In this document: piece after piece, positions 10,529 to 60,893 of the stretch
How the letters are laid out: each line of letters begins with the position of its first letter
How positions within the stretch are numbered: the stretch's first letter is position 1
DNA from: Corallococcus coralloides DSM 2259
GTDB taxonomy: Bacteria > Myxococcota > Myxococcia > Myxococcales > Myxococcaceae
Direction: 5' to 3'
Length of the DNA stretch: 64,000 nt
NCBI RefSeq assembly: GCF_000255295.1
Contig: NC_017030.1
Coordinates: 186,001 to 250,000 of the forward strand
The notes under the pieces: model-generated
The model's input: only the letters and a program-made list of their open reading frames with translations
Told to the model about the DNA's origin: nothing
Databases searched by the model: none
Translations under genes and position numbers: made by a program

Positions 10529-12177
10529 GCTGCCTCCGACAGGAATGCATCCACCTGGGCCTGGCGGAACTGGAAGTCGCGGATGACGAGCTCGAGTTCG
10601 GCCTGCCGCAGGGCCCCGGCCGCATCCACCAGCTCGAGGCTCGTTCCGGTGCCCACCTCGAAGCTGCGGCGGGTGAGCCGGTCATTCTCTTCCGCGAGTC
10701 TGCGCTCGCGCTCCGCCAGGTCGCGCGTCGCCTGGGTCACCTGCACGGCGCGCTTCGCCTGGGTGACCTCGATGACGATGTTGCGCTCGCGGTTGGTGAC
10801 ATCCGCGCGGGCCTGCTCCAATTGGCCGCGGGCCTGGCGCAGGCGGCCCTCGCGCGCGCCGCCGTCCCAGAAGGGCAGCACCAGGCTGGCGCCGACGTTC
10901 CAGATGGGGACCTCGGCGAAGCCCGGGTTGACGGTGAGCGCGGTGGTGGTGCTGGTGAGGTCCAGGGTGGGCGCGTACTGGCGATACACCTCGCCGATGG
11001 CGCGTTCGGCCACCACCTGGCGCGACTTCGCGGCGGCGATGTCCGGGCGGTTCTCCAGTGACTCCAGCGTGCGGCAGGTGGCCTTCGTGCCCTCGAAGAG
11101 CGTGGTCAGCTCCAGGCCCGGCTTGATGCCCACGGCGGACGGAGTGCCCAGGGCGAGGCCCAGGGCCTCGCGAGCCTGGCGCAGGTTCTCATCTCCGGTG
11201 ACGACGTTGCGGCGCGCGGTCTGGGCGTCCTGCTCCACGCGGACGACGTCCAGGCGGGTGCCGGCGCCCAGCTCGAAGCGGCGCTGCGCGAGGGCCAGCC
11301 GCTCCAGCGCGGTGCGCAGGTTGACGCGGTTGACCTCCGCCAGGCGCTCGTTGGAGGACACGGAGACGAGCGCCTGCGCGAGCCCCCGGGTGAGCTGCCG
11401 GCGCGTCTCCGCGAGCGACAGGGCGGCGGTGCGCCGCGACTCCTTGGCGCTGCCCAGGGCGTAGAGGCTGGCCAGGTCCACCACGGGCACGTTGGCGTTG
11501 AGCACGCCGATGCCCAGGAGCTCCGTGGGCGTGAAGCCCCCTTCGCCGCTGACGCCACCGCCCACGCCACCGCCGATGCCACCGCCGACAGCGGGGATGT
11601 TCGGGTTGAGGATGTTGTACTGGGCGGACAGGGTGCCGCCGACGGTGGGCAGCAGGTTGGCGAGCGCGATGCGCCACGTGCCCGCGGCGACCTCCACCTG
11701 ACCCAGGACCGCCTGGAGGTCGGTGGAGCGCTGGCGCAGGAGCGTGAGCGCTTCGTTCCAGGACTGGATCTCCTGGGGCGCGGCGGGCGCGGGAGTGAGC
11801 AGCGGATCCGACACGTTCGCCTGGAACGGTGGAGGCACTTCCGGAACGTCGTCCGGATTCTGGGACGAAGGCGTGCGGGTTCGGTCGGGCTGCCGCGCGG
11901 GTGTTCGCGCGGGCGTGTTCGGAGCCGGGGCATTCGGCGCGGCGGGAGGCTGCTCGGGGAGCTTCAGGACCGGGGCGTTCGGCGCGGGCGCGTTCGGAGC
12001 CAGGGTGTTCGGTGGCGTGACGGGAGGCGTGGGCGGCGGAGGCGCGGGCGGAGCGCGCTGCGGTGGCGCGGTGTATTGCGCGACGAGCGGCCGAGAAGGT
12101 CCGGAGCCGTGCGGTGCTGGCGCCTCACCGGGGATTCCGGAGGGGACCAGCAGGGCTGCGAACACGAACGCGTTCAT
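10516..12177 (-). CDS. TolC-family outer membrane efflux protein with Pro/Ala/Asn-rich N-terminal extension
   Basis: About 553 aa. An N-terminal signal-like segment (NAFVFAALLVPSG) is followed by about 100 residues of low-complexity repeats such as APNAP and TPP. Two outer-membrane-efflux repeats then follow (QSWNEALTLLRQRSTDLQAVLGQVEVAAG; LTRGLAQALVSVSSNERLAEVNRVNL; RNIVIEVTQAKRAVQVTQATRDLAERERRLAEEN), with the usual helix ends (FELGAGTRLDVVRVEQD, FEVGTGTSLELVDAAG). It forms the trimeric exit duct for the pump. ATG 12177 follows GGGGAG at the right distance. First gene of the efflux operon; its 3' end overlaps the adaptor start. The Pro-rich extension is longer than in classical TolC. Confidence 0.9.
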   Translation of the reverse strand: MNAFVFAALLVPSGIPGEAPAPHGSGPSRPLVAQYTAPPQRAPPAPPPPTPPVTPPNTLAPNAPAPNAPVLKLPEQPPAAPNAPAPNTPARTPARQPDRTRTPSSQNPDDVPEVPPPFQANVSDPLLTPAPAAPQEIQSWNEALTLLRQRSTDLQAVLGQVEVAAGTWRIALANLLPTVGGTLSAQYNILNPNIPAVGGGIGGGVGGGVSGEGGFTPTELLGIGVLNANVPVVDLASLYALGSAKESRRTAALSLAETRRQLTRGLAQALVSVSSNERLAEVNRVNLRTALERLALAQRRFELGAGTRLDVVRVEQDAQTARRNVVTGDENLRQAREALGLALGTPSAVGIKPGLELTTLFEGTKATCRTLESLENRPDIAAAKSRQVVAERAIGEVYRQYAPTLDLTSTTTALTVNPGFAEVPIWNVGASLVLPFWDGGAREGRLRQARGQLEQARADVTNRERNIVIEVTQAKRAVQVTQATRDLAERERRLAEENDRLTRRSFEVGTGTSLELVDAAGALRQAELELVIRDFQFRQAQVDAFLSEAACEW

Positions 12178-12490
12178 AAAGGGATGCTCCCCAGGTAGGG
12201 GCGAAGCCAGCCCCCGGCCACGGTTCGCGCCCCCCGGCGCTCCAGTGGACAACACAGCAGGGCGAGGAAGTGCTCAGCAATCGATGAACAGACCTCGAGT
12301 CGGCGCTGGAGGTCCGGGATTGCCCTTACGGGCGTAGGGGCAGGGAAGGTGGAGGGGCTCGTGGAGACATGGCGCGTCCTGACGCTGGCTGGGGCAAGGA
12401 AGAGCCAACGTGCGTCACGAGCGCCGAGCGGGCGTCTGTCTTCAAGGGAGGGCGCGCGTTCAACACGCCACGGCGGTCATGACTGCCAGG
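12178..12490. other. intergenic region upstream of the efflux operon
   Basis: 313 bp between the start of the tolC-like gene and the end of the upstream lipoprotein gene, both on the minus strand. It should contain the efflux-operon promoter, but I see no convincing -35/-10 pair, palindromic operator or hairpin. Confidence 0.4.
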
Positions 12491-13048
12491 TCAGGGGCCC
12501 TGGCGTGCGCCGGTTCCCGCATCCGGGAACGGCAGGGGCATGGAGCCATCGGGTGGATCAAAGGACCGGCCGACCTCCGACGTGGGAACCAGGGTACCGG
12601 GCCCTGCATCCGTGGGCACGCGCGATTCATCCGGCTCGCCATCCCGAAGGCGGCGGAGGAGCCGGCCATCGCTCCCGACCGCGTACTGCGCGCCCGAGTG
12701 CAGCGCGGGAACGGTCAGGCCACAGGCCCGGGGATCCTCATCGATCCGGATGAAGATGACCCCTTGCCGCTGAACGACCCTGTACCGGTGTGACTCGCGC
12801 CGGTCGACGCAGGGCGTGTTGGCATCTTGTGGGCCCAGGAAGTCAGCGGCGGCGACTTCGAGCGCGCGCAGGACACTGCCGCTCAACTCGACCGTACTGC
12901 CATCCACGCCCGCTTCCACGGCGGGCTGTTCGAAGAAGCGGGGGAACTCGATGGACGTGTCATTCGTCCACGCATCACGCGTGGGCGTGGACCGCAGGCA
13001 GCCCGCCAGGAGCAATGCTGCCGGAAGCGCGCGCCACGCCACGCTCAC
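12491..13048 (-). CDS. predicted lipoprotein of unknown function
   Basis: About 185 aa starting at GTG 13048. The signal ALPAALLLAGC is a clean lipobox with Cys 17. The mature protein has a segment with two conserved-looking Cys (ANTPCVDRRES and DEDPRACGLTVPALH) around a beta-rich core (SHRYRVVQRQGVIFIRID), then an acidic, Pro-rich tail. It begins 11 bp after the octaheme cytochrome stop, so the two are probably co-transcribed and both exported. I do not recognise a family. Likely membrane-anchored in the periplasm or outer membrane. Confidence 0.65.
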   Translation of the reverse strand: MSVAWRALPAALLLAGCLRSTPTRDAWTNDTSIEFPRFFEQPAVEAGVDGSTVELSGSVLRALEVAAADFLGPQDANTPCVDRRESHRYRVVQRQGVIFIRIDEDPRACGLTVPALHSGAQYAVGSDGRLLRRLRDGEPDESRVPTDAGPGTLVPTSEVGRSFDPPDGSMPLPFPDAGTGARQGP

Positions 13049-13059
13049 GCCGCGAGTCC

Positions 13060-15141
13060 TCACTGCGCCGGCAGCATGCCCAGCCGCTGCTTCGCGGACT
13101 TGTTCTGCGGATCGAACCGGAGCGCTTCCTCCAGCCGCTCGCGGCCCTTCGCCGGGTTGCCCTGCACCACGTAGAGGTCCGCCAGCCGCACCAGCACGTC
13201 CGCGTTGTAGGGCTGCAGGTCCAGCGCCTGTTCGAACTCGCGCGTCGCCGTGGTCACGTCCCTGCGGCGCATGGCCAGCTGCCCCAGCATCACGTGCGGC
13301 TGCACCAGCCCGCGCGTCTCCGGCTCCGTCGCCAGCGCCTGCAAGGCCGGCATCGCCCTCGCGTCCCCGAATGCCGCCAGCGTCAACGCCGCGCCCTGCC
13401 GCACCCACAGCGAGCCGTCCTTGAGCAGCGCCGCCAGGTCCTCCGTCGCCTCGCGCGCGTTCGCCGCGCCCAGCCCGTCGATGATGTCCGAGCGCAACGT
13501 GCTGTCCGTCGTCCCCTTCAACGCCGCCCGCAGCGCCGGCACCGCGTCGCGCTTGAACCGGCGCGCCAGGAACTTCGCCGCCGCGCCCCGCAGCGTGCCC
13601 GCCTCCGTCGTGTCCGCCAGCACCGCCTCCAGCGCCCCACGGCTGAGCGCCGCCGTCTTCTCGTCGAACGCGTCCGCCAGCCGCAGCCGACGCGCCTGCC
13701 GCGCCTCCGCCTTCGGCCACCACTTCACCAGCGACGCCTGCATCGCGTCCGGCGTCTGCTTCGCGTGACAGGTGTTGCACGCGTTGGGGATGTCATGGCG
13801 CGCCGTGTTCCGCGGCGCCGGCACGTCCAGCGCGTGGTCCGCGAAGTGGTCCAACACGCCCGACACCACCGGCGGCATGTGACACGCCAGGCAGTCCTGC
13901 GCCGCCGCGGCCTTGTGGTGCGTGTGCTGCTCGCCCTGCGCCACCACCTCCGGATGACAGCCCTGGCACGTGGACGCGTTCACCGACGTGCGCGCCGCCA
14001 CCGGCTTCTGCTTGCGCACCTCGTTGGGCGCGCTCGCGTCGTGCGGCGCCGTGTGGCACGTCAGGCACGTGGCCCCGCCCTTCAGGTGGCACTGGGACTG
14101 GATGAGCGCCTGGTACTCGAAGCTGGAGGTGCTGGGCCGCCCATCCGCGAAGAAGTCCCCGGAGCGGTCGTTGCCCACCAGCATCACCATGGGCTGATAG
14201 CTCGCATCGTAGCGCTGGCCGGGCTGGAAGTGGTGCTTCGCGTCCAGCATGGGGAACAGCGTGCGGCGCGGCCCGTGGCACTGCGCGCACACCGCGAAGC
14301 CCTCCTCCTTCGACAGCTTCGCCGGCTGGATGATGTCCGCCGGAACCTGCGACTCCGCATGCCGCCCGCCGGGCCCGTGGCAGGACTCGCACGCCACGCC
14401 CGCGTCCGCGAACTTCGTCTCCCACTGGTGGCTCGCCCGGTCATAGCGCGCGTCCAGCCCTGTCACGTGGCAGTCCAGGCACGCGTGCTGCGCGCTGCGG
14501 CGGAAGTTCGTCCAGAAGAACGGGTGGTCCGGCGACAGCGCCCCCTGCTTCTTCTCCGAGTAGTCCACCCACTCGCCCTTGCCCGTGACGTGGAAGTACA
14601 CCGGCATCACCTGCCAGCGGCCGTCCGGCAACAGCGTGATGGGGTCCTGCATCCGCTTGCCACCCACCACCCACTGCACCGGCCACTCGCCCAGGTTCCC
14701 GTCCGCGCCCTTGGTGCGCATCAGGTACTGGCTTCCGTCGCGGCGCATCCACGCCTCGCTGGACTCGCCCTTGAAGTGCGTGCCCGCCGCGAACGTGCCC
14801 ACCACGTACGGCTTCGTCGCCGGAGACAGCGCCCTCGAGTGCCAGTCGTGCTTCCAGCCCGTGTGCTGCTCCTCGTGGCAGTCCGCGCACACCTGCGAGC
14901 CCACGAAGTGGTTCGGCTTCGAGGGCGGCGCCTCCACCGTCTTCACCGGCACGGGCGCGGCCACGCTGCCCGCGTCCAGTGGGGTCTCCGGAGCCGGCGC
15001 GGGCGCCTGCGTCACCGGCGGGGACACGGCGGGCGTGGGCGCTGAAGGGCGCAGGAAGAAGAACAGGCCCGCCGCGAGGACCACCACCGCGAGGGCGACA
15101 AGGACAGGGCGAGAGGAGCGCATCCGGAAGGTGCCGCCCAT
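13060..15141 (-). CDS. octaheme c-type cytochrome with HEAT-like and TPR repeats
   Basis: About 693 aa. After an N-terminal anchor helix (PVLVALAVVVLAAGLFFFL) and a Pro/Ala linker come eight CxxCH haem sites: CADCH, CLDCH, CESCH, CAQCH, CLTCH, CQGCH, CLACH and CNTCH. The CESCHGPGG and GG.TCLTCH contexts recall cytochrome c554-like domains. HEAT-like helical repeats follow from about residue 480 (LKGTTDSTLRSDIIDGLG, LLKDGSLWVRQGAALTLAAFGD), then a TPR pair at the end (FEQALDLQPYNADVLVRLADLYVVQGN). It is a periplasmic electron-transfer protein with a docking module. ATG 15141 has GGAGG three bases away; ATG 15123 is the alternative. No quinol oxidase or reductase partner adjoins it. Confidence 0.85.
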   Translation of the reverse strand: MGGTFRMRSSRPVLVALAVVVLAAGLFFFLRPSAPTPAVSPPVTQAPAPAPETPLDAGSVAAPVPVKTVEAPPSKPNHFVGSQVCADCHEEQHTGWKHDWHSRALSPATKPYVVGTFAAGTHFKGESSEAWMRRDGSQYLMRTKGADGNLGEWPVQWVVGGKRMQDPITLLPDGRWQVMPVYFHVTGKGEWVDYSEKKQGALSPDHPFFWTNFRRSAQHACLDCHVTGLDARYDRASHQWETKFADAGVACESCHGPGGRHAESQVPADIIQPAKLSKEEGFAVCAQCHGPRRTLFPMLDAKHHFQPGQRYDASYQPMVMLVGNDRSGDFFADGRPSTSSFEYQALIQSQCHLKGGATCLTCHTAPHDASAPNEVRKQKPVAARTSVNASTCQGCHPEVVAQGEQHTHHKAAAAQDCLACHMPPVVSGVLDHFADHALDVPAPRNTARHDIPNACNTCHAKQTPDAMQASLVKWWPKAEARQARRLRLADAFDEKTAALSRGALEAVLADTTEAGTLRGAAAKFLARRFKRDAVPALRAALKGTTDSTLRSDIIDGLGAANAREATEDLAALLKDGSLWVRQGAALTLAAFGDARAMPALQALATEPETRGLVQPHVMLGQLAMRRRDVTTATREFEQALDLQPYNADVLVRLADLYVVQGNPAKGRERLEEALRFDPQNKSAKQRLGMLPAQ

Positions 15142-51978: not shown

Positions 51979-53007
51979 ATGAACTGGGGAAGAGTCGCGC
52001 CCGCCATGAACATCGCCGTCCTCGTCAATCTGCGTGCGCGTAAAGGGACCGAGGGGATGGGCGGGCTCGTCAGAGACCTGCTCCCCCGGGCCCGGGTGGC
52101 CCTGACCCGTTCCCTGGAGGAAGCCCAGGAGTGGGTGGACCAGCTGAGGCACGACCCGCCCAGCCTGCTGCTCGCGGGCGGAGGCGACGGCACCATCACG
52201 GGCCTGCTCAACGAGCTGCGCTCCCAGGGCGTGGCCCTGCCGGCCATTGGCGTGCTGCCGCTGGGCACGGGCAACGCCTGGGCCCGCGTCACCGGGGCGC
52301 CGCGTCCCCAGGTGGCCCTGAAGCAGATCGCCGCGTATGGCGAGCGCCTGCCGCCCCTGCGTCCCTTCTCCCTGGTGCGGGTGGAGGGCCGGGTGGCGCC
52401 CTTCGCGGGCACGGGCTGGGACGCGGAGATGATTCAGGACTTCAAGAACCAGCTCGCCGCCGCCGGTCCGCTGAAGAAGGCGCAGTCCGGCCTGCGCGGC
52501 TACCTGGGCGCCATGTTCACGCGCACGGTGCCGCGCCACCTGTTCGGCGAGGGCAACCCGAACGTCTCCGTCTACAACCTGGGCGCGTCCGCGCTGACCA
52601 TCGACGCGTCCGGCGCGGTGCGGCCGTTGCCCAACGGCGGCGAGGGGCAGCTCCTGTACCAGGGCCCCGCGGGCGTGGCGGGCGCGGCGACGACGCCGGA
52701 GTGGGGCTTCGGCTTCAAGGCGTTCCCGTTCGCGCAGGCGGTGCCGCACCGGCTGTCCGTGCGCGTGTACGGCGCGGGCGTGATGGAGGCCACGCGCAAC
52801 ATGTTCCGCCTGTGGCGCGGCGAGCACCCCATGCCGCGCATGCACGACTTCTTCGTGGAGCGCCTGCGGATGGACTTCGACCGCGAGGTGCCCTTCCAGA
52901 TGGGCGGCGACGTGCTGGGCATGCGCCGCTCGCTGGAGTTCGACCTGGCGGAAGAGAACGTCAACCTGGTCGACTGGCGGCGCCTGGGGCGGCTCGTCGC
53001 CGTCTAG
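51979..53007 (+). CDS. diacylglycerol kinase-like lipid kinase
   Basis: 342 aa (or 333 from ATG 52006, which gives the more typical start MNIAVLVN). DAGK catalytic motifs are LLLAGGGDGTITGLLNEL (residues 64-81) and LPLGTGNAWARVTGAP. The second beta-sandwich domain follows (FAGTGWDAEMIQDFKNQ...). Members phosphorylate diacylglycerol, ceramide or sphingosine. The final strand motif is FQMGGDVLGMR rather than the usual DGE. The stop overlaps the convergent GntR gene by four bases. Confidence 0.85.
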   Translation: MNWGRVAPAMNIAVLVNLRARKGTEGMGGLVRDLLPRARVALTRSLEEAQEWVDQLRHDPPSLLLAGGGDGTITGLLNELRSQGVALPAIGVLPLGTGNAWARVTGAPRPQVALKQIAAYGERLPPLRPFSLVRVEGRVAPFAGTGWDAEMIQDFKNQLAAAGPLKKAQSGLRGYLGAMFTRTVPRHLFGEGNPNVSVYNLGASALTIDASGAVRPLPNGGEGQLLYQGPAGVAGAATTPEWGFGFKAFPFAQAVPHRLSVRVYGAGVMEATRNMFRLWRGEHPMPRMHDFFVERLRMDFDREVPFQMGGDVLGMRRSLEFDLAEENVNLVDWRRLGRLVAV

Positions 53008-54164
53008 GACGGCGGTTCGCGGTCCGTTGACGCATCCGGCGCGGAAGCACGATTCGTGCGGATGCGTCCGGAGCAATCGACGCGGAGCAATCCACCCTCC
53101 TTGTCCTCCGTTACGGGATTCTGTCCAGGAGCGCCGGTGGATGGAGTCCTGAGTTGGTCGGGAGGCGAAGCGTCACAACCTGTCCGACAGTCGGACAGGC
53201 TTCCCAAGGGCGCGTTCGTCTCGTCTCCTCCGGCACACTCCCCATCACGCTCGCAGGGATTGAGCGCCGGGGCCGCTGCGAGCAACGGCGCCGCGCGGTC
53301 CGCTTCCACGGGACAGTCCTGCCGAGAGGCATGAGGTGCAACCTCGAGCGCCTCGTCGGCTGGTGCGAGGTGGCCCGCATCATCCTGCGTGGTGGCTGAC
53401 GCGGGGGCGCTGGGGCTGCACTCCTGGGGGCGGTTGTCCTCGGGGGACGCATGCTTCCGTGAAGTGGGTGCGAAGGCGTCCAGTACACGCTCATCATACG
53501 CCTTCAGGAGTGCCGGCAGCTGGTGCAGGAGTGCCTGGGTGTCGCGCTCGTTCAGGGCATGCATCGCGCACACGGCCCATTCGCGCAGCGACTCGCCGCC
53601 CATGAAGGGCAGCAGCCCGGCCGCAGTGCCTCTGAAGGCCCGCAGTAGCGACTGGATGAGGAGCTGGTACCCGGGACGTGCCGCCGCCCGGGCCGCCAGC
53701 CGCAGCAACTCGAATTCCAGCTGCACGCACCGCTCCGCGGGGTGCCAGCGTGCCGCGTCCCAAAGCTGGAAGCAGGTGCTCCCCAGCAGCCCCAGGTCCA
53801 TGACGGAGGCATTCGCGCAGCAGTCGGCCAGTAGCTCCACCAACACCTGCCGCTTGAGGAGGAAGAAGCCCTCCAAGAGGCGTCGGCACTCCTCGGGGCG
53901 CTCGCCATGGAGTGCCAGGCCCAGGTTCTCCAACGTCAGCGACTCATCCAGTGCCACCGCTCGTGCCTGGCGTCCGGGATGCTGCACCACCAGCCCCCGC
54001 GCTGACAGTCGCCGCAGTGCCTCGCGCACGGTGCCCCGGCTCACCCCATAGCGACGAGCCATCATCCGCTCCGAGGCCAACCGCCCGTTCCCCGGCAGCC
54101 GTCCCAGCGCGATCTCCCGCTCGAGCTGCTCCTCCACGTACGCCACGAGCCCCACCCTCACCAT
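53004..54164 (-). CDS. GntR/FadR-type transcriptional regulator with long C-terminal tail
   Basis: About 386 aa from ATG 54164, which follows AGGGGG at good distance; ATGs at 54197 and 54218 are possible. GntR winged helix at residues 5-63 ([50 protein letters not shown]). A helical FCD-like ligand domain spans about 70-240 ([25 protein letters not shown]...). The last 140 residues are low-complexity Ser/Pro/Asp/Ala, absent from normal FadR/FCD regulators. A 33-bp palindrome lies upstream and a related one is inside the tail-coding DNA. Confidence 0.82.
53179..53199. promoter_or_regulatory. palindrome inside the 3' end of the GntR gene
   Basis: CCTGTCCGAC-A-GTCGGACAGG, perfect 10-bp arms and one central base. 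Its core GTCCGACnGTCGGAC is the same as in the palindrome upstream of the GntR gene. It lies in the region encoding the low-complexity tail and may be a second operator for the same protein. Confidence 0.6.
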
Positions 54165-54280
54165 CTCCGACCCCCTCCTCGCCAATGCTTCGCCCATCCA
54201 ACCAGACGGGTCTGACATGGACGCGAGGGCCCGCCCTCCCTGGCGCCCGCCGCGACAGCGCGGCCTTGGGTGGCAGGCGG

Positions 54281-54313: not shown

Positions 54314-54505
54314 GACATCGCGCCCGGCAGGCGGCTTCTGCCCGTGGCCTGCCTTGGTGTCCGTTCCAGCACGCTGTCACGGCCTACCGCTGCGCTCCGG
54401 GCGTCGCGCGTTCTCGTGGGAACTTCGGCCGCCGGGGGCTCACGAACCGCGGGAGCCCTGTCCAGCCGTCGTGCGCCTCCCACGTGTGAAGGCGCTTGCC
54501 GGCAC

Positions 54506-54522
54506 CGTGTCATCTGGACACG
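54506..54522. promoter_or_regulatory. palindromic operator upstream of the NrtR-like gene
   Basis: CGTGTC-ATCTG-GACACG, perfect 6-bp arms, 22 bases before the Nudix/NrtR start codon. The same GTGTCAT-N3-GACAC pattern recurs at 55301-55315 in front of the PP2C operon, so it is the likely binding site of the NrtR-like protein. Confidence 0.7.
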
Positions 54523-54544
54523 ATGCTGTCTGGAGGGTCTCCCC

Positions 54545-55234
54545 ATGAGCCACACCTATGAGTACCCGCGCCCGGCGGTGACGGTGGACTGCGTCGTCTT
54601 CGGGTTGGACGAGGAGGACCTCAAGGTGCTGCTCATCCAGCGCGGCGTGGAGCCGTACCAGGGCCGGTGGGCGCTGCCCGGTGGCTTCGTGCGCATGGAC
54701 GAGTCCCTGGAGGACGCCGCGCGCCGCGAGCTGGAGGAAGAGGCGGGCCTGCGCACCAGCCACCTGGAGCAGCTCTACACGTTCGGTTCTCCGGACCGTG
54801 ACCCCCGGGGCCGCGTCATCACCGTGGCGTACTTCGCGCTGGTGAAGCTGTCCCAGCACCACCTCCAGGCCTCCACCGACGCGCGTGAGGCGGCGTGGTT
54901 CTCTGTCTGGGACACGCCGAAGCTCGCGTTCGACCACGCGGACGTGCTGGCCACGGCGCTGCAGCGGCTCAAGGGCAAGGTGCGCTACCAGCCCATCGGG
55001 TTCGAGCTGCTGCCGCCCAAGTTCACGCTGTCGCAGCTCCAGCGGCTGTACGAGACGGTGCTGGAGCGCGAGCTCGACAAGCGCAACTTCCGCAAGAAGA
55101 TCCTCGCCATGGACCTCCTGGAGGAGCTGGACGAGGTGGAGCAGGACGTTTCCCACCGCGCCGCGCGCCTCTACCGGTTCGACCACAAGAAGTACAAACA
55201 GCTCGAGAAGGCCGGCTTCAACTTCGAGCTCTGA
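54545..55234 (+). CDS. NrtR-like Nudix-fold transcriptional regulator
   Basis: 229 aa. A complete Nudix box at residues 47-69 ([23 protein letters not shown], with all E/R positions) sits in a Nudix domain. The C-terminal 80 residues ([36 protein letters not shown]...[25 protein letters not shown]) match the winged-helix region of NrtR, the ADP-ribose-responsive regulator of NAD genes. Many NrtRs have a degenerate Nudix box; here it is intact, so hydrolase activity may remain. GGAGGG precedes the ATG, and a palindrome before it implies autoregulation. Its likely target is the next operon. Confidence 0.85.
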
Positions 55235-55292
55235 ACACACCCACCTCCCGCCACGCCCATCAGCGCCCGCTGACAGGTTGTCCCTCGTTGCC

Positions 55293-55321
55293 TTGACTTC
55301 GTGTCATTTAGACACTATGTT
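55293..55321 (+). promoter_or_regulatory. sigma70-like promoter of the PP2C/kinase/nicotinamidase/vWA operon
   Basis: TTGACT at 55293-55298 (-35, 5 of 6), a spacer of exactly 17 bases, then TATGTT at 55316-55321 (-10, 4 of 6). The spacer is almost filled by the operator GTGTCATTTAGACAC. The start site would be near 55328, giving a leader of about 90 bases before the PP2C ATG. Confidence 0.6.
55301..55315. promoter_or_regulatory. NrtR-like operator A in the -35/-10 spacer
   Basis: GTGTC-ATTTA-GACAC, perfect arms, same form as the site before the NrtR-like gene. Its position between the promoter boxes implies repression of the operon. Confidence 0.7.
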
Positions 55322-55322
55322 G

Positions 55323-55337
55323 GTGTCGTAGATACAC
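55323..55337. promoter_or_regulatory. NrtR-like operator B at the predicted start site
   Basis: GTGTC-GTAGA-TACAC, arms matching at 4 of 5 positions. It is centred 22 bp downstream of operator A, about two helical turns, so two dimers could bind side by side. Confidence 0.5.
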
Positions 55338-55416
55338 GAAGTCGGGCGGCGCGGGGCCGCTCACTCGCCAGCAGGTTCCTGTGTCGTGCGTGCCCTTCGA
55401 GGGCCACGGGAGAGCC

Positions 55417-56220
55417 ATGTCCACGCTGCCCTTCGATGTCGCGGTGGGTTCGGTGCAGGGCCGGGAGCACGCGCGCTCGGGACGCAACAACCAGGACGCC
55501 GCCTGCGTCCGGGAGAGCGAGCACGGGCTGGTGGTGGTGGTGGCGGACGGGTGTGGCAGCCAGCCGTGCAGCGAGCTGGGCGCGCAGTTGGGCGTGCGGC
55601 GGCTGGCGCAGGCGGCGCAGGCGCGGCTGGCGCGGGGGGAGGCGGTGGACGGCGCGGACTTCCTGCCCGGGCTGCGCTCGGACCTGTTGGAGCTGATGGA
55701 GGGCCTGGCGTCCACGCTGGGGCGGGACGTGCTGGGGGACCTGCTCTTCACGCTGGTGGGGGCGGTGATGACGCCGGCGCATACGCTCGTCTTCTCGGCG
55801 GGGGACGGGGTGTGGATGCTCAACGGTGAGGTGCACGCGCTGGGGCCGTTCCCGGGCAACGCGCCGCCGTATCTCGCGTATGTGCTGCTGCGCGGCGAGG
55901 ACGTGCGGCTGGAGCCCCGGGCGCTGGTGCCCACGGAGGACGTGCACGCGCTGCTGGTGGGCACCGACGGGGTGGGGGACCTGCTGGGCCTTTCGCAGGC
56001 GCGGCTGCCGGAGCGCGATGAGCCCGTGGGCCCGCTGTCGCGTCTCTGGACGGAGGACCGGTACTTCACGAACCCGGACGCAGTGCGACGGCGGCTCGCG
56101 CAGCTCAATCGCGAGTCGGTGCGCGCCGACTTCGCGGAGCGGCGGCTGCTGCGCACGCCGGGCCTTCTGACGGACGACACCACGCTGGTGGTGCTGCGCC
56201 GCCGGATGGGGAGGGCGTGA
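55417..56220 (+). CDS. PP2C-family Ser/Thr phosphatase (TerY-P triad member)
   Basis: About 267 aa. PP2C metal motifs are GRNNQDAACVRESEHGLVVVVADGCGSQP, FSAGDGVWMLNG, LLVGTDGVGDLL and LTDDTTLVVLRRR. It would dephosphorylate Ser/Thr residues placed by the kinase-like protein encoded 5 bp downstream. GGGAGAG precedes ATG 55417. First gene of the operon behind the promoter and operators at 55293-55337. PP2C, kinase and vWA genes together form the TerY-P triad known from comparative work on tellurite-resistance and stress systems. Confidence 0.85.
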   Translation: MSTLPFDVAVGSVQGREHARSGRNNQDAACVRESEHGLVVVVADGCGSQPCSELGAQLGVRRLAQAAQARLARGEAVDGADFLPGLRSDLLELMEGLASTLGRDVLGDLLFTLVGAVMTPAHTLVFSAGDGVWMLNGEVHALGPFPGNAPPYLAYVLLRGEDVRLEPRALVPTEDVHALLVGTDGVGDLLGLSQARLPERDEPVGPLSRLWTEDRYFTNPDAVRRRLAQLNRESVRADFAERRLLRTPGLLTDDTTLVVLRRRMGRA

Positions 56221-56224
56221 GGCC

Positions 56225-58093
56225 ATGGACGTCTGGCTGGAGGGAAGGAAGGTCCGGTTGGATCCGCAGCGGGCGCTGGGCAAGGGCGGCGAGGCGGATG
56301 TCTATGACCTGGGCGATGGCCGCGCGCTCAAGGTCTTCAAGCAGCCCGAGCACCCGGACTACCTGGGCCTGTTGCCCGAACAGGCCGCGGCGAAGGCCCG
56401 GCTCGTGGAGCACCAGCGCAAGCTGCGCGCGTTCCCCTCGGGTCTTCCTGCTCGCGTGGTGACGCCGCAGGCCCTGGCCACGGACAAGAAGGGCGCGGAG
56501 GTGCTGGGCTATGCGATGCGCAAGCTGGACGGCGTGGAGCCGCTGCGCCGGTGGAGCGAGCCCGCGTTCCGGCGCGCGGGAGGCAAGGCCTCGGACGCGG
56601 TGACGGTGCTGGCGGGGCTGCATCGGGTGCTGGCGGCGGTGCACTCGGCGAGTGTCGTGGTGGGGGACTTCAATGACCTGAACGTGCTGACGGTGGGCAC
56701 GGACGCGTACTTCATCGACGCGGACAGCTTCCAGTTCGGTCCCTTCCTGTGCCCGGTGTTCACGGAGAAGTTCCTGGACCCGCTGCGGTTGGATCCGGGG
56801 GCGCAGACGCTGACGCCCGCGCGGCCGGCGACGGTGGAGAGCGATGGGTATGCCTTCGCCGTCACCGTGATGCAGTCGCTGCTGTGCGTGGGGCCGCAGG
56901 GTGGCATCCACAAGCCGAAGACGCAGGCGGCCCGGCTGAACGCGGTGGGACGGATGCTCCAGCGCGTCACCGTGTTTCATCCGGACGTGCAGTACCCCAA
57001 GCCGGCGCTGCCCCGGGCCTCGCTGCCGGATGACCTGCTGCACCTGTTCCACCAGGTGTTCGTGGAGGACCGGCGCGGCGCGTTCCCACTGCCGATGCTG
57101 GAGGGACTTCGCTTCTCGGTGTGCGCGTCGTGTGGCCTGGAGCACGCGCGGGCCGCGTGTCCCACGTGTCAGCCGCACGCGACGGTGGCGGCAACGCCGG
57201 TGTCGGCGGTTCGCGGGCAGGTGACGGCGAAGCGGACGTTCACGACCCGTGGCGTGCTGGTGCACGCGAGCGCAGAGGATGGGACGGTGCGCTTCGTCTA
57301 CCACGCGGACGGCGCGTACCGGCGTGAGGACGGCCGCACGGTGATGCGCGGCGAGCTGGACCCAACGCTGCGCTGGGCGGTGCAGGGGGACGTGACGCTG
57401 CTGGGGCAGCGGGGGCGCGTGGCGGTGTTCGCGCCAGGCCGGGAGCAGGAGTTCCTGGGCGTGGATGTCTGCGACAACCGGCCGGTGTTCGCGGCCAATG
57501 CCAGACACCGGTTCTGGGCGTCGGGTGGCGGGCTGTGGCGGGACGGCGTGTACGGGGCCGAGCGGTGGGGGGACGTCTTGCAGGGGCAGACGCGGCTGTT
57601 CGTGGGACCGCGGTTCGGGCTGGGGTTCCACCGCGCGGCGGGGCTTCGGGGCGCCTTCCTGTTCAACGTGGAGCGCAAGGGGCTGCGGGACGGGCTCGCG
57701 CTGCCGTGGCCGTCGGGGCAGCTGTTGGATGCGGAGGCCGTGTTCGACGCGGACTCGGTGTGGCTGCTGCTCGCGGAGGAGGCCCACGGCCGCACGGTGC
57801 ACCACGCGGTGTTGCTGGGGGCGGATGGAGCGGTGCGCGCGAGCGCCCGGGCCGACGCGGGGGACGGCTCGTGGCTGGGGACGCTGGGTGGAAAGTGCGC
57901 CGTGGGGGGCGCGCTCTTCTGCGCCACGGACGCCGGGCTGACGCGCGTGGAGCTCCAGCAGGGCCAGTTGGTGGCGGTGCGCGAGTTCCCGGACGCGGAG
58001 CCGTTCGTGGACGCGGGCCGCGGGTTGCTGCTGTCGCGTGAGGGATTGACGGTGGTGGGGGCCCAGGACCTCACCGTGCTGCGGATGAAGTGA
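56225..58093 (+). CDS. protein kinase-like protein with zinc ribbon and beta-propeller-like C-terminus (TerY-P triad)
   Basis: 622 aa. Kinase-like domain at residues 10-290: Gly loop LGKGGEADVYDLG, Lys 36 (ALKVFKQ), catalytic loop VVGDFNDLNVLTVG with Asp 148 and Asn 153, metal Asp 165 in YFIDADSFQ (replacing DFG). A zinc ribbon follows near 298-317 (CASCGLEHARAACPTC). The last 300 residues are repeated beta-rich units (FVYHADGAYRREDGRTVMRG; FWASGGGLWRDGVYG; VWLLLAEEAHGRTVHHAVLLG), perhaps a propeller. Kinase plus ribbon is the form found in TerY-P triads. Co-transcribed with PP2C and the downstream genes. Substrate unknown. Confidence 0.8.
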   Translation: MDVWLEGRKVRLDPQRALGKGGEADVYDLGDGRALKVFKQPEHPDYLGLLPEQAAAKARLVEHQRKLRAFPSGLPARVVTPQALATDKKGAEVLGYAMRKLDGVEPLRRWSEPAFRRAGGKASDAVTVLAGLHRVLAAVHSASVVVGDFNDLNVLTVGTDAYFIDADSFQFGPFLCPVFTEKFLDPLRLDPGAQTLTPARPATVESDGYAFAVTVMQSLLCVGPQGGIHKPKTQAARLNAVGRMLQRVTVFHPDVQYPKPALPRASLPDDLLHLFHQVFVEDRRGAFPLPMLEGLRFSVCASCGLEHARAACPTCQPHATVAATPVSAVRGQVTAKRTFTTRGVLVHASAEDGTVRFVYHADGAYRREDGRTVMRGELDPTLRWAVQGDVTLLGQRGRVAVFAPGREQEFLGVDVCDNRPVFAANARHRFWASGGGLWRDGVYGAERWGDVLQGQTRLFVGPRFGLGFHRAAGLRGAFLFNVERKGLRDGLALPWPSGQLLDAEAVFDADSVWLLLAEEAHGRTVHHAVLLGADGAVRASARADAGDGSWLGTLGGKCAVGGALFCATDAGLTRVELQQGQLVAVREFPDAEPFVDAGRGLLLSREGLTVVGAQDLTVLRMK

Positions 58094-58114
58094 AACACAC
58101 ACAGGGGGCTGGAC

Positions 58115-59182
58115 ATGAAGAAGACGACCGTGAAGGAGCTGCCGCTGCCCGGGTTCTACAATTCCAACCACGCGGCGGAGTACGGCTACGGCCCGAACGC
58201 CGGGAAGCTCCAGCGTGACGCCGGAGCGTGGAAGGCGGCGCAGGGCGTGACGGCGGCGGCCACGGACCGCTTCAACCTGCACCTGCTGCTCATCGACGTG
58301 CAGAAGGACTTCTGCTTCCCGGATGGCTCGCTGTACGTGGCGGGGCGCAGCGGGCGGGGCGCCATTGACGACAACCGCCGCATCGCGGAGTTCATCTACC
58401 GGAACCTGGGGACGCTGACGAACGTCACCGCGACGCTGGATACGCACTTCGCCTACCAGATCTTCTTCCCGTCCTTCTGGGTGGACCAGGACGACCAGCC
58501 GCTCCAGCCGTACCGCGAGGTGACTCGCGAGCAGATCGAGCGCGGCCAGGCCAGGCCGAACCCCGCCGTGGCGAAGTGGTTGTGCGGCGGCAACTACCCG
58601 TGGCTGCTCAAGCAGGTGAAGTTCTACTGCGAGGAGCTGGAGCGCGCGGGGAAGTACACGCTCTACCTGTGGCCGCCGCACTGCCTGCTGGGCAGCGACG
58701 GGCACGCGCTGTCGGGCGTGGTGCAGGAGGCGCGGCTGTTCCACTCGTACGCGCGCGGCGTGCAGTCGTGGGCGGAGGTGAAGGGCGGCAACCCGCTGAC
58801 GGAGAACTACTCGGTGCTGCGGCCGGAGGTGCTGATGCGGCATGACGGCCAGCCGCTCGCGCAGCGCAACACGCAGTTCCTGAAGACGCTGCTCACGTCG
58901 GACGCGGTGGTGATTGGCGGACAGGCGGCCAGCCACTGCGTGAAGAGCAGCATCGACGACCTGTTGGGGGAGATCGTCGCGCAGGACGCGGCGCTGGCTC
59001 GCAAGGTGTACCTGCTGACGGACTGCATGTCGTCGGTGACGGTGCCGGACGGCAAGGGCGGCTTCGCGGCGGACTTCACGCCGCAGGCGGACGCGGCGCT
59101 CAAGCGCTTCGCGGACGCGGGCATGCACCTGGTGAAGTCCACGGACCCGCTGGCGAGCTGGCCGGACCTGCACCTGGCGTGA
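58115..59182 (+). CDS. nicotinamidase-like cysteine hydrolase, long form
   Basis: 355 aa, much longer than usual nicotinamidases (about 180-215). The full triad is visible: Asp 61 (LLLIDVQKDFCF), Lys 223 (AEVKGGNPLTENYSV) and Cys 275 (IGGQAASHCVKSSIDD). Metal-site residues also appear: DTH (109-111) and WPPHC (186-190). It has a 50-residue N-terminal extension and an insert around 120-180. Nicotinamidase turns nicotinamide into nicotinic acid in NAD salvage. Placement in an NrtR-type operon supports an NAD-related role, but the inserts may alter substrate. Followed 38 bp later by the vWA gene. Confidence 0.82.
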   Translation: MKKTTVKELPLPGFYNSNHAAEYGYGPNAGKLQRDAGAWKAAQGVTAAATDRFNLHLLLIDVQKDFCFPDGSLYVAGRSGRGAIDDNRRIAEFIYRNLGTLTNVTATLDTHFAYQIFFPSFWVDQDDQPLQPYREVTREQIERGQARPNPAVAKWLCGGNYPWLLKQVKFYCEELERAGKYTLYLWPPHCLLGSDGHALSGVVQEARLFHSYARGVQSWAEVKGGNPLTENYSVLRPEVLMRHDGQPLAQRNTQFLKTLLTSDAVVIGGQAASHCVKSSIDDLLGEIVAQDAALARKVYLLTDCMSSVTVPDGKGGFAADFTPQADAALKRFADAGMHLVKSTDPLASWPDLHLA

Positions 59183-59220
59183 TGTCTGGCATTGGCACTC
59201 ACACGAAGGGAGACACGGAC

Positions 59221-60015
59221 ATGAGCAAGGCGAACGGGACGGGCGTCACGAAGCTCTTCGAGGACGCGCACGCGGAGGGCACCCTGAGCATGGCGGGGTT
59301 GCAGACGCTCACGGTGGTGGACCTGGGGGCGCAGATCCAGGCGGGCCTGGGCATCCACGTGGACGACGTGCAGGCGAGCGAGGTGGTGCTGGTGACGGTG
59401 ATGCCGGATGACTCCGGGAGCATCTCGCACTCGGGGCACACGAAGACGGTATGTGATGGGCACAACCTGGTGCTGGACGCGCTGCTGGCGAGCCAGCAGA
59501 AGGACGGCGTCCTGTTCCACACGCGCTACCTGAACGGGCACGTGCTCAATCCGTTCCGGCCGCTGGAGGACGTGGTGCGGATGCACTCCAAGAACTACTC
59601 GGCGGACATGGGGACGCCGCTGTACGACCAGGCGGTGGTGCTGCTGGGCACGGTGCTGGCGAAGGCGCAGGAGTTCAGTGGCAACGGGGTGCCGGTGCGC
59701 ACGGTGACGTTGCTCATCACGGACGGCGCAGACGCGGGGTCGCAGAAGGCGCGGGCGAAGGACGTGGCGGCGCTGGTGAAGGACCTGCAGCGGGTGGAGA
59801 ACCACATCGTCGCGGCGATGGGCATCGACGATGGGGTGACGGACTTCCGGCGCGTGTTCCAGGAGATGGGCATCTCGGACCGGTGGATCCTCACGCCGGG
59901 GCAGAGCGCCCAGGAGATCCGCGCCGCGTTCCAGGTGTTCAGCCAGTCCGCCGTGCGCGTCAGCCAGGGTGCGGCCAGCTTCAGCCGCACGGCGCTGGGC
60001 GGCTTCGGGGCCTGA
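59221..60015 (+). CDS. TerY-like von Willebrand factor A domain protein
   Basis: About 264 aa, cytoplasmic. MIDAS metal site: DDSGS (residues 63-67), Thr in SADMGTPLYDQ and Asp in LLITDGADAG. A short helical N-terminus (GVTKLFEDAHAEGTLSMAGLQTL) precedes the vWA domain. TerY-type vWA proteins are thought to act as switchable scaffolds phosphorylated by the partner kinase. Last gene of the operon; it ends 2 bp before the convergent hydrolase gene. No TerB/C/D genes are in the window. Confidence 0.82.
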   Translation: MSKANGTGVTKLFEDAHAEGTLSMAGLQTLTVVDLGAQIQAGLGIHVDDVQASEVVLVTVMPDDSGSISHSGHTKTVCDGHNLVLDALLASQQKDGVLFHTRYLNGHVLNPFRPLEDVVRMHSKNYSADMGTPLYDQAVVLLGTVLAKAQEFSGNGVPVRTVTLLITDGADAGSQKARAKDVAALVKDLQRVENHIVAAMGIDDGVTDFRRVFQEMGISDRWILTPGQSAQEIRAAFQVFSQSAVRVSQGAASFSRTALGGFGA

Positions 60016-60017
60016 CG

Positions 60018-60893
60018 TCACGCCCGGAGGAAGTCTCCGAGCAGCTCGCGGACCTCCTCGGGCCGCTCCTCGGACACCCAGTGGCCGGTGTCCCGGAGGA
60101 TGTGGGGCTCGACCTGATTCGCCACCGCACGCGCCTGCGCGACGAGCGGTTCGCCCAGGGACTTGTCACCGCCAATGACCATCACGGGCATGGGGAGCTT
60201 GTTCCGGGCCAGCTCCCGGAAGGCCTTCTTGTCCTGGTCGAAGGCCTGGAAGTAGCTCCACGTCGAATGGAGCCGGCCCGGGGCCGCGTAGGCCTCCGTG
60301 TACGCCTGCCGTTCCGCTTCGCCGACGGCCTGGGGATTGGCGGCAAGGTCGGTCCAGAAATGGTCGAAGTAGATGCGCTCACGCCCCTGCACCAGCTTCT
60401 CCGCGGTGGCGCCGTTGAAGGTGAAGTGCCACACGTCCCTGCTGCTCATGACCTGGTCGGACCAGGGCTCGATGCCCGGCAGGAACGCGTCCAGGAGGGC
60501 CAGGCGTTCGACCTCGTCGGGGAACAAGGCGGCGTAGGCGTAGGCGACCATCAGCCCGATGTCGTGGCCCACGACGGAGACCTTGTCGAAGCCGAGCTTC
60601 TTCACCAGCGCGCGCATGTCGCGGGCCATCGTCTCCTTGTCATAGCCCCGCGCGGGGGCGGCCGAGGCGCCCGCGCCTCGCAGGTCCGGGATGAGCACGG
60701 TGTGCTGCTTCGCGAGCTCCGGCGCCAGGCGCCACCACATGAGGTGCGTCTGCGTGTAGCCGTGCAGCAGCAGGACGGGGCTGCCCTTGCCCCCGATGAC
60801 GAAGTGGATCCGCGTGCCATTGACGTCCTCGTCGCCTTCGCGGAAGCCTTCCGGGAAGAAGGGACGGACGCTGCTCGGCTGCTGGCGTGTCAT
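60018..60893 (-). CDS. alpha/beta hydrolase, epoxide hydrolase/dehalogenase-like
   Basis: 291 aa. VLLLHGYTQTHLMWW (oxyanion HG), LRGAGAS, nucleophile Asp in VVGHDIGLMVAYA (GHDxG rather than GxSxG), late His in ILRDTGHWVSEERPEEV. An Asp nucleophile points to epoxide hydrolase, haloalkane or fluoroacetate dehalogenase activity. The cap region (WHFTFNGATAEKLVQGRERIYFDHFW) is typical of epoxide hydrolases. Cytoplasmic. Convergent with the vWA gene. Confidence 0.88.
   Translation of the reverse strand: MTRQQPSSVRPFFPEGFREGDEDVNGTRIHFVIGGKGSPVLLLHGYTQTHLMWWRLAPELAKQHTVLIPDLRGAGASAAPARGYDKETMARDMRALVKKLGFDKVSVVGHDIGLMVAYAYAALFPDEVERLALLDAFLPGIEPWSDQVMSSRDVWHFTFNGATAEKLVQGRERIYFDHFWTDLAANPQAVGEAERQAYTEAYAAPGRLHSTWSYFQAFDQDKKAFRELARNKLPMPVMVIGGDKSLGEPLVAQARAVANQVEPHILRDTGHWVSEERPEEVRELLGDFLRA

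Follow-up and report, generated by a model that had tools for sequence, protein, structure and literature searches.

A predicted NrtR/AraR-type repressor with tandem operators and a dispersed NAD and ADP-ribose regulon in Corallococcus coralloides

In the soil bacterium Corallococcus coralloides DSM 2259, an operon encoding a phosphatase, a kinase, a nicotinamidase-like hydrolase and a von Willebrand A (VWA) protein is preceded by a sigma70-like promoter that carries one palindrome between its -35 and -10 hexamers and another over its predicted start, and a palindrome of the same type lies upstream of a neighbouring Nudix gene. This arrangement raises the question of which regulator reads these sites, which genes it governs and which signal would release it. 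We approached it computationally in a window of 64,000 nucleotides (the whole stretch of DNA analysed, C1:186001-250000) and in the single-contig genome C1 of 10.08 Mb, which was the target of the genome scan. The reading that we favour, with a probability of about 85%, is that a NrtR/AraR-type repressor binds GTGT-N7-ACAC and blocks the operon, its own gene and distant ADP-ribose genes until it is released by ADP-ribose or a close relative of that molecule.

The promoter, its operators and the operon

The promoter TTGACT-17-TATGTT had been predicted from the letters of the window, and it proves correct base for base (Table 1); it is the sole sigma70-like promoter in the 5.8 kb from 54400 to 60200, where shuffled sequences give 0.1. 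The original prediction also placed an operator filling the 17-bp spacer, a second operator two turns downstream at the predicted start and a further copy of the site ahead of the Nudix gene. All of these held up: the spacer palindrome is conserved in relatives, the second operator is a variant copy of the first at exactly 22 bp from centre to centre, and the third palindrome, GTGTCATCTGGACAC, lies 24 bp ahead of the start codon (ATG) of the Nudix gene, now called nrtR. The motif is best written as GTGT-N7-ACAC. With a weight matrix built from relatives, only these three operators score above 10 in the 64-kb window, and the next best site reaches 9.4. In Corallococcus, the nrtR promoter itself gave no good sigma70 match.

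Table 1. Positions of the promoter elements, operators and genes within the window
Feature	Position	Strand	Basis
Operator GTGTCATCTGGACAC upstream of nrtR (predicted autoregulation site)	54507-54521	no strand	matrix score 18.4
nrtR, NrtR/AraR-family repressor (predicted), 229 aa, Nudix domain and winged helix	54545-55234	+	Pfam, PDB match
-35 hexamer TTGACT	55293-55298	+	sequence read directly
Complete tandem operator, CTTC-operator 1-TATGTTG-operator 2-GAAG	55297-55341	no strand	sequence and consensus of 36 relatives
Spacer, 17 bp	55299-55315		between TTGACT and TATGTT
Operator 1, GTGTCATTTAGACAC	55301-55315	no strand	inside the 17-bp promoter spacer; matrix score 23.1
-10 hexamer TATGTT	55316-55321	+	sequence read directly
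Operator 2, GTGTCGTAGATACAC	55323-55337	no strand	over the predicted start; matrix score 20.8
PP2C-type phosphatase, first operon gene	55417-56220	+	Pfam PP2C_2 8e-21
Protein kinase, YegI-like	56225-58093	+	BLASTP to E. coli YegI 4e-16
Nicotinamidase-like cysteine hydrolase	58115-59182	+	AlphaFold pLDDT 92; top structural matches nicotinamidases
VWA (MIDAS) protein	59221-60015, alternative start 59179	+	AlphaFold pLDDT 88

The layout is highly conserved. Among 30 related genomes, 16 from the same genus and 14 from other genera, every nrtR locus (about 3.7 kb) holds exactly three GTGT-N7-ACAC cores, of which one precedes nrtR and the other two follow it at 22 or 23 bp from each other. Of 125 pairs of adjacent operators, 109 are spaced by 22 bp from centre to centre, a redundant count because some loci overlap, and such a fixed distance fits cooperative binding on one face of the DNA. 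Across 44 distinct homologous tandem promoters, the -35 hexamer is TTGACT or TTGACA in 43 and the -10 hexamer is TATGTT in 37, although only the variable hexamer positions are informative here, since the pattern used to collect these promoters itself demanded T(T/C)GA(C/T) and TA. In several genera (loci L088-L090, L092, L094, L095, L098 and others), an additional tandem-operator promoter, absent from the window, lies within the operon, directly ahead of the nicotinamidase-like gene.

The proteins of the operon resemble known families to different degrees. The phosphatase and the kinase are clear homologues of E. coli PphC and YegI: within a three-protein database, the PP2C family profile matched PphC at 1.5e-18 and the kinase profile matched YegI at 7.5e-25, with BLASTP in agreement. 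The last protein has a VWA fold, but its sequence match to E. coli YegL in that database is weak (0.0015). The best structural matches of the VWA model are integrin I and other VWA domains, and the protein carries the motifs DDSGS and TDGAD. The model of the nicotinamidase-like hydrolase superimposes on yeast Pnc1 with a Z score of 22.1 and 2.5 Å over 210 residues, and it combines the isochorismatase/nicotinamidase fold with an Asp-Lys-Cys triad, given by D61, K223 and C275, which are invariant in 40 sequences. In nicotinamidases such as PncA, the metal site consists of one Asp and three His. D109, H111 and H189 are invariant in the alignment of the same 40 sequences, in which a counterpart of the remaining metal His was not found. 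The hydrolase, of 355 aa, is 95-100% identical to Corallococcus proteins. A second nicotinamidase-like paralog adjoins the nicotinate phosphoribosyltransferase gene pncB (C1:7648840; L119, G000:C1:7638000-7657000, 10838-13295); no GTGT-N7-ACAC operator was found across its 19-kb region, which places this paralog outside the regulon, and it probably serves housekeeping salvage.

The predicted repressor and its signal

The original prediction had noticed the shared operator upstream of the Nudix gene, but it did not recognise that this gene itself encodes the predicted repressor, and the function of the regulon escaped it. The protein has an N-terminal Nudix domain and a C-terminal NrtR winged helix (Pfam E-values of 5e-30 for NrtR_WHD, 5e-24 for NUDIX and 3e-14 for AraR_C), with bit scores of 85 for PF00293, 104 for PF21906 and 54 for PF19368 against cut-offs of 21, 27 and 24. 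Like other members of the family, it is accompanied by palindromic operators, read from the sequence, in its own and its target promoters, and its DNA-contact residues suit them. The closest solved structure in the PDB is BtAraR (5bs6, E 1e-57), which was crystallised on GCAAAAGTGTTACTTTTACACCCATGC, a DNA that includes GTGT-N7-ACAC, and in which Lys179, Arg180, Asn181, Lys184, Lys204 and Arg205 define GTGT (PMC4666351). Of these residues, only Lys204 differs in NrtR, where it is His; the others are retained in a DKRNFRK helix and the wing. The helix is identical in nearly all NrtR orthologs, over a range of overall identity that extends to 65%, a value reached in cyanobacteria.

Loci with and without this helix are also informative. 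The tandem-operator model matches exactly 16 of 39 family genomes, which are those with a canonical NrtR (84-100% identical), and has zero matches in the other 23, including those with a 42-50% identical paralog whose helix reads DPGNFR; the split follows phylogeny, so its events are not independent, and we take it as support, not as a formal test. At one locus in these 23 genomes (L097; G050:C30, 1026-5111), a relative with 62% identity has Ile in place of Lys179, and the site GTGT-N7-ACAC was not found there, so that its operator has likely been rewired. At loci L121-L125, a 42-46% identical paralog with DPGNFR lies near nicotinamidase/PncB genes or near a full PP2C-kinase-nicotinamidase-VWA set; a matching operator is absent, and these loci may represent a parallel circuit with a different DNA code. 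The arrangements NrtR-NADAR-SPFH in L097 and PncB-PP2C-kinase-nicotinamidase-like-VWA-NrtR paralog in L122 also show that the genes discussed below recur as neighbourhoods.

The Nudix catalytic box GX5EX7REUXEEXGU is intact in every covered ortholog of at least 62% identity (one truncated locus lacks the region), whereas it is reported to be impaired in the NrtRs studied so far (PMC6800001). A degenerate box, typical of studied members although not strictly defining, is thus a family trait that this NrtR does not share, and on the evidence of its sequence the repressor may hydrolyse its own inducer.

From these data, a mechanism can be envisaged in which an apo-NrtR dimer would sit on each GTGT-N7-ACAC palindrome. 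Occupation of operator 1 between the hexamers and of operator 2 over the start, on the same DNA face, would repress the operon, the site before nrtR would allow autorepression, and the same protein would control distant NADAR, PARG, SPFH and NAD-kinase-like genes and, in this clade, also ARH. When NAD is split or ADP-ribosyl groups are removed, free ADP-ribose or a close relative would appear, bind the Nudix domain and make the winged helices swing off the DNA; release from DNA by ADP-ribose is known for other NrtRs (PMC6800001, PMC4666351). The induced enzymes would then free nucleic acids and proteins of ADP-ribose and deamidate the released nicotinamide, and induction would also supply the kinase/phosphatase/VWA signalling module.

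A dispersed regulon and competing explanations

Elsewhere on the chromosome, the extended palindrome TTCGTGT-N7-ACACGAA occurs without mismatches in two places in 10 Mb, once upstream of a NADAR gene (Pfam 3e-53) and once upstream of a gene for a microbial PARG (Pfam 9e-51). Another tandem pair, again spaced by 22 bp, lies upstream of two genes, one of them SPFH (Band_7 2e-19) and the other NAD-kinase-like (PDB NADK2 7e-7, without a Pfam match), and a weaker operator precedes an ADP-ribosylglycohydrolase (ARH) gene (Pfam 2e-72). The operator footprint is conserved at 29 of 30 loci for NADAR, in 30 of 30 for the SPFH pair and in 24 of 30 for PARG, from which it is missing in 66% paralog copies among others; for ARH it is found in 7 of 30, confined to the closest Corallococcus. 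These sites define a predicted regulon that consists of nrtR, the PP2C-kinase-nicotinamidase-like-VWA operon, NADAR, PARG and the SPFH and NAD-kinase-like genes, with ARH in close relatives only.

The genome scan that the original prediction called for thus yielded a functionally coherent regulon, which means that the conserved sites are not randomly scattered in coding DNA. The motif proposed for it, GTGTCAT-N3-GACAC, was nevertheless too narrow: it has three exact matches in the genome, one of them intragenic, and misses most of the regulon sites. A longer pattern, TTGAC-N3-GTGT-N7-ACACTA with 3 mismatches, was also rejected, as its 20 matches against 57 in the control are at or below chance. 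The core shows no raw enrichment either (the 10.08 Mb contain 29 exact matches to it and 22 to the reversed control), many of the 29 being intragenic as expected by chance, and the significance of the operators therefore rests on their position and conservation. Other high-scoring cores are mostly intragenic (L337, L339, L342, L328, L014 and L333), while L338, L335 and L340 lie between genes or where no gene is called. L338 (G000:C1:6493764), a single GTGT-N7-ACAC 56 bp upstream of purH, may be due to chance. A strong tandem operator in another genome (L399, G037:C1 near 9885835, scores of 20.5 and 23.0) could belong to a new regulon member in one genus.

With regard to the signal, it is conceivable, although we consider it distinctly less probable, that the same repressor and operators respond to an inducer other than ADP-ribose, such as NAD, a sugar or another nucleotide. 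The C-terminal domain and the overall best match of NrtR point to AraR, its closest DNA-bound relative, which responds to arabinose, and in Corynebacterium the effector of NdnR is NAD (PMC4666351). Moreover, NrtR matches the NCBIfam model NF050029 for ADP-ribose-responsive NAD repressors at 181 bits, well below its equivalog cut-off of 400. Against such an inducer, the arginine with which SoNrtR contacts ADP-ribose, which is Gly89 in AraR, appears from alignments to be retained here (RDPRG), and the regulon comprises ADP-ribosyl hydrolases and nicotinamide salvage, with no sugar genes.

The position of operator 1 recalls MerR, whose activators sit between -35 and -10 and need a spacer of 19-20 bp, and one could imagine a similar activation from the spacer rather than repression. 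The spacer here has the normal 17 bp, however, the hexamers are near consensus and operator 2 covers the start, while the studied members of the family are repressors (PMC6800001, PMC4666351), all of which makes activation improbable.

It is less probable still that the palindromes are bound by the product of the divergent gene at 53004-54180 (- strand) instead of NrtR, even though this gene lies directly beside the 54507 site and encodes a GntR-type helix-turn-helix by sequence. Of 129 related loci, no more than 2 have this gene nearby, one of them being the window itself, while the operators and NrtR stay together and operators track NrtR genome-wide in 16 of 16 cases; we rejected it as the cognate regulator for this lack of conservation. 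Finally, that the sites are palindromes which arose by chance in GC-rich intergenic DNA, as the raw counts might suggest, is already refuted by their conserved position and spacing in all 30 genomes and beyond the phylum, and by the coherent regulon.

Relation to known systems and meaning

NrtR and AraR are well known as regulators. The predicted repressor shares with NrtR of Shewanella, Synechocystis and Mycobacterium smegmatis the Nudix domain and winged helix and the palindromes that precede both its own gene and genes of NAD metabolism. Whereas NAD biosynthesis genes are the targets there, its predicted targets are ADP-ribosyl hydrolases and a kinase/phosphatase/VWA operon; its Nudix box is intact, and its operator is GTGT-N7-ACAC as opposed, for example, to GTTTTCGA-N7-TCGAAAAC in Mycobacterium. 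With AraR of Bacteroides thetaiotaomicron, its closest solved protein, it has in common the DKRNFRK helix, the operator seen in the crystal and tandem sites before the target operon; AraR, however, has arabinose genes as targets, arabinose as ligand and an impaired Nudix box, whereas the targets here are NAD and ADP-ribose genes. The operon in turn resembles the yegI-pphC-yegL triad of E. coli (a TerY-P-type kinase, PP2C and VWA set) in its homologues of YegI and PphC and in the presence of a VWA protein, and to these it adds the nicotinamidase-like enzyme and predicted control by NrtR.

A survey of NAD and ADP-ribose systems in viruses described predicted Nudix-HTH regulators that sense ADP-ribose and control ADP-ribose-removing enzymes in single neighbourhoods (PMC9503650). 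In contrast to those ADP-ribosylglycohydrolase systems, the targets here are dispersed on the chromosome and belong to three unrelated hydrolase families that share one operator. As far as the literature covered shows, three features appear to be new, namely this dispersed regulon, the intact Nudix box and the predicted control by NrtR of a kinase/PP2C/VWA/nicotinamidase-like operon; no earlier description of the regulon was found in a literature that excluded most subscription journals and the founding NrtR paper (Rodionov 2008), where part of it may be listed.

The module reaches well beyond the genus, since PP2C-kinase-nicotinamidase-like-VWA sets occur in Sorangium, Minicystis, a Desulfococcaceae bacterium, an Acidobacteria MAG, Pseudanabaena and Argonema, and the same operators often accompany it in these distant genomes, including Sorangium, the Acidobacteria MAG and the cyanobacteria. 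In bacteria, nucleic acids and proteins are cleared of ADP-ribose by NADAR, PARG and ARH enzymes, several of which have unexplored physiological roles (PMC11833690). Little is known of how these enzymes are controlled. One conserved operator that unites three hydrolase families, nicotinamide salvage and a kinase/phosphatase/VWA module suggests that they act as a single response, and it names a signal that can be tested. The same operator assigns to NAD and ADP-ribose metabolism the Yeg/TerY-type kinase-phosphatase-VWA set, about whose role little is known. Should the intact Nudix box prove active, the NrtR sensor would act as switch and off-switch in one. We venture, as a tentative idea, that NrtR is part of a self-terminating switch, in which a working Nudix site would sense ADP-ribose, open the regulon of NADAR, PARG, ARH, the nicotinamidase-like and NAD-kinase-like enzymes and the kinase/PP2C/VWA module, and hydrolyse the inducer to reset the system, and that such a switch might protect Myxococcota and, by way of the shared operators, some cyanobacteria and acidobacteria quite generally from toxins or phage enzymes that ADP-ribosylate their targets.
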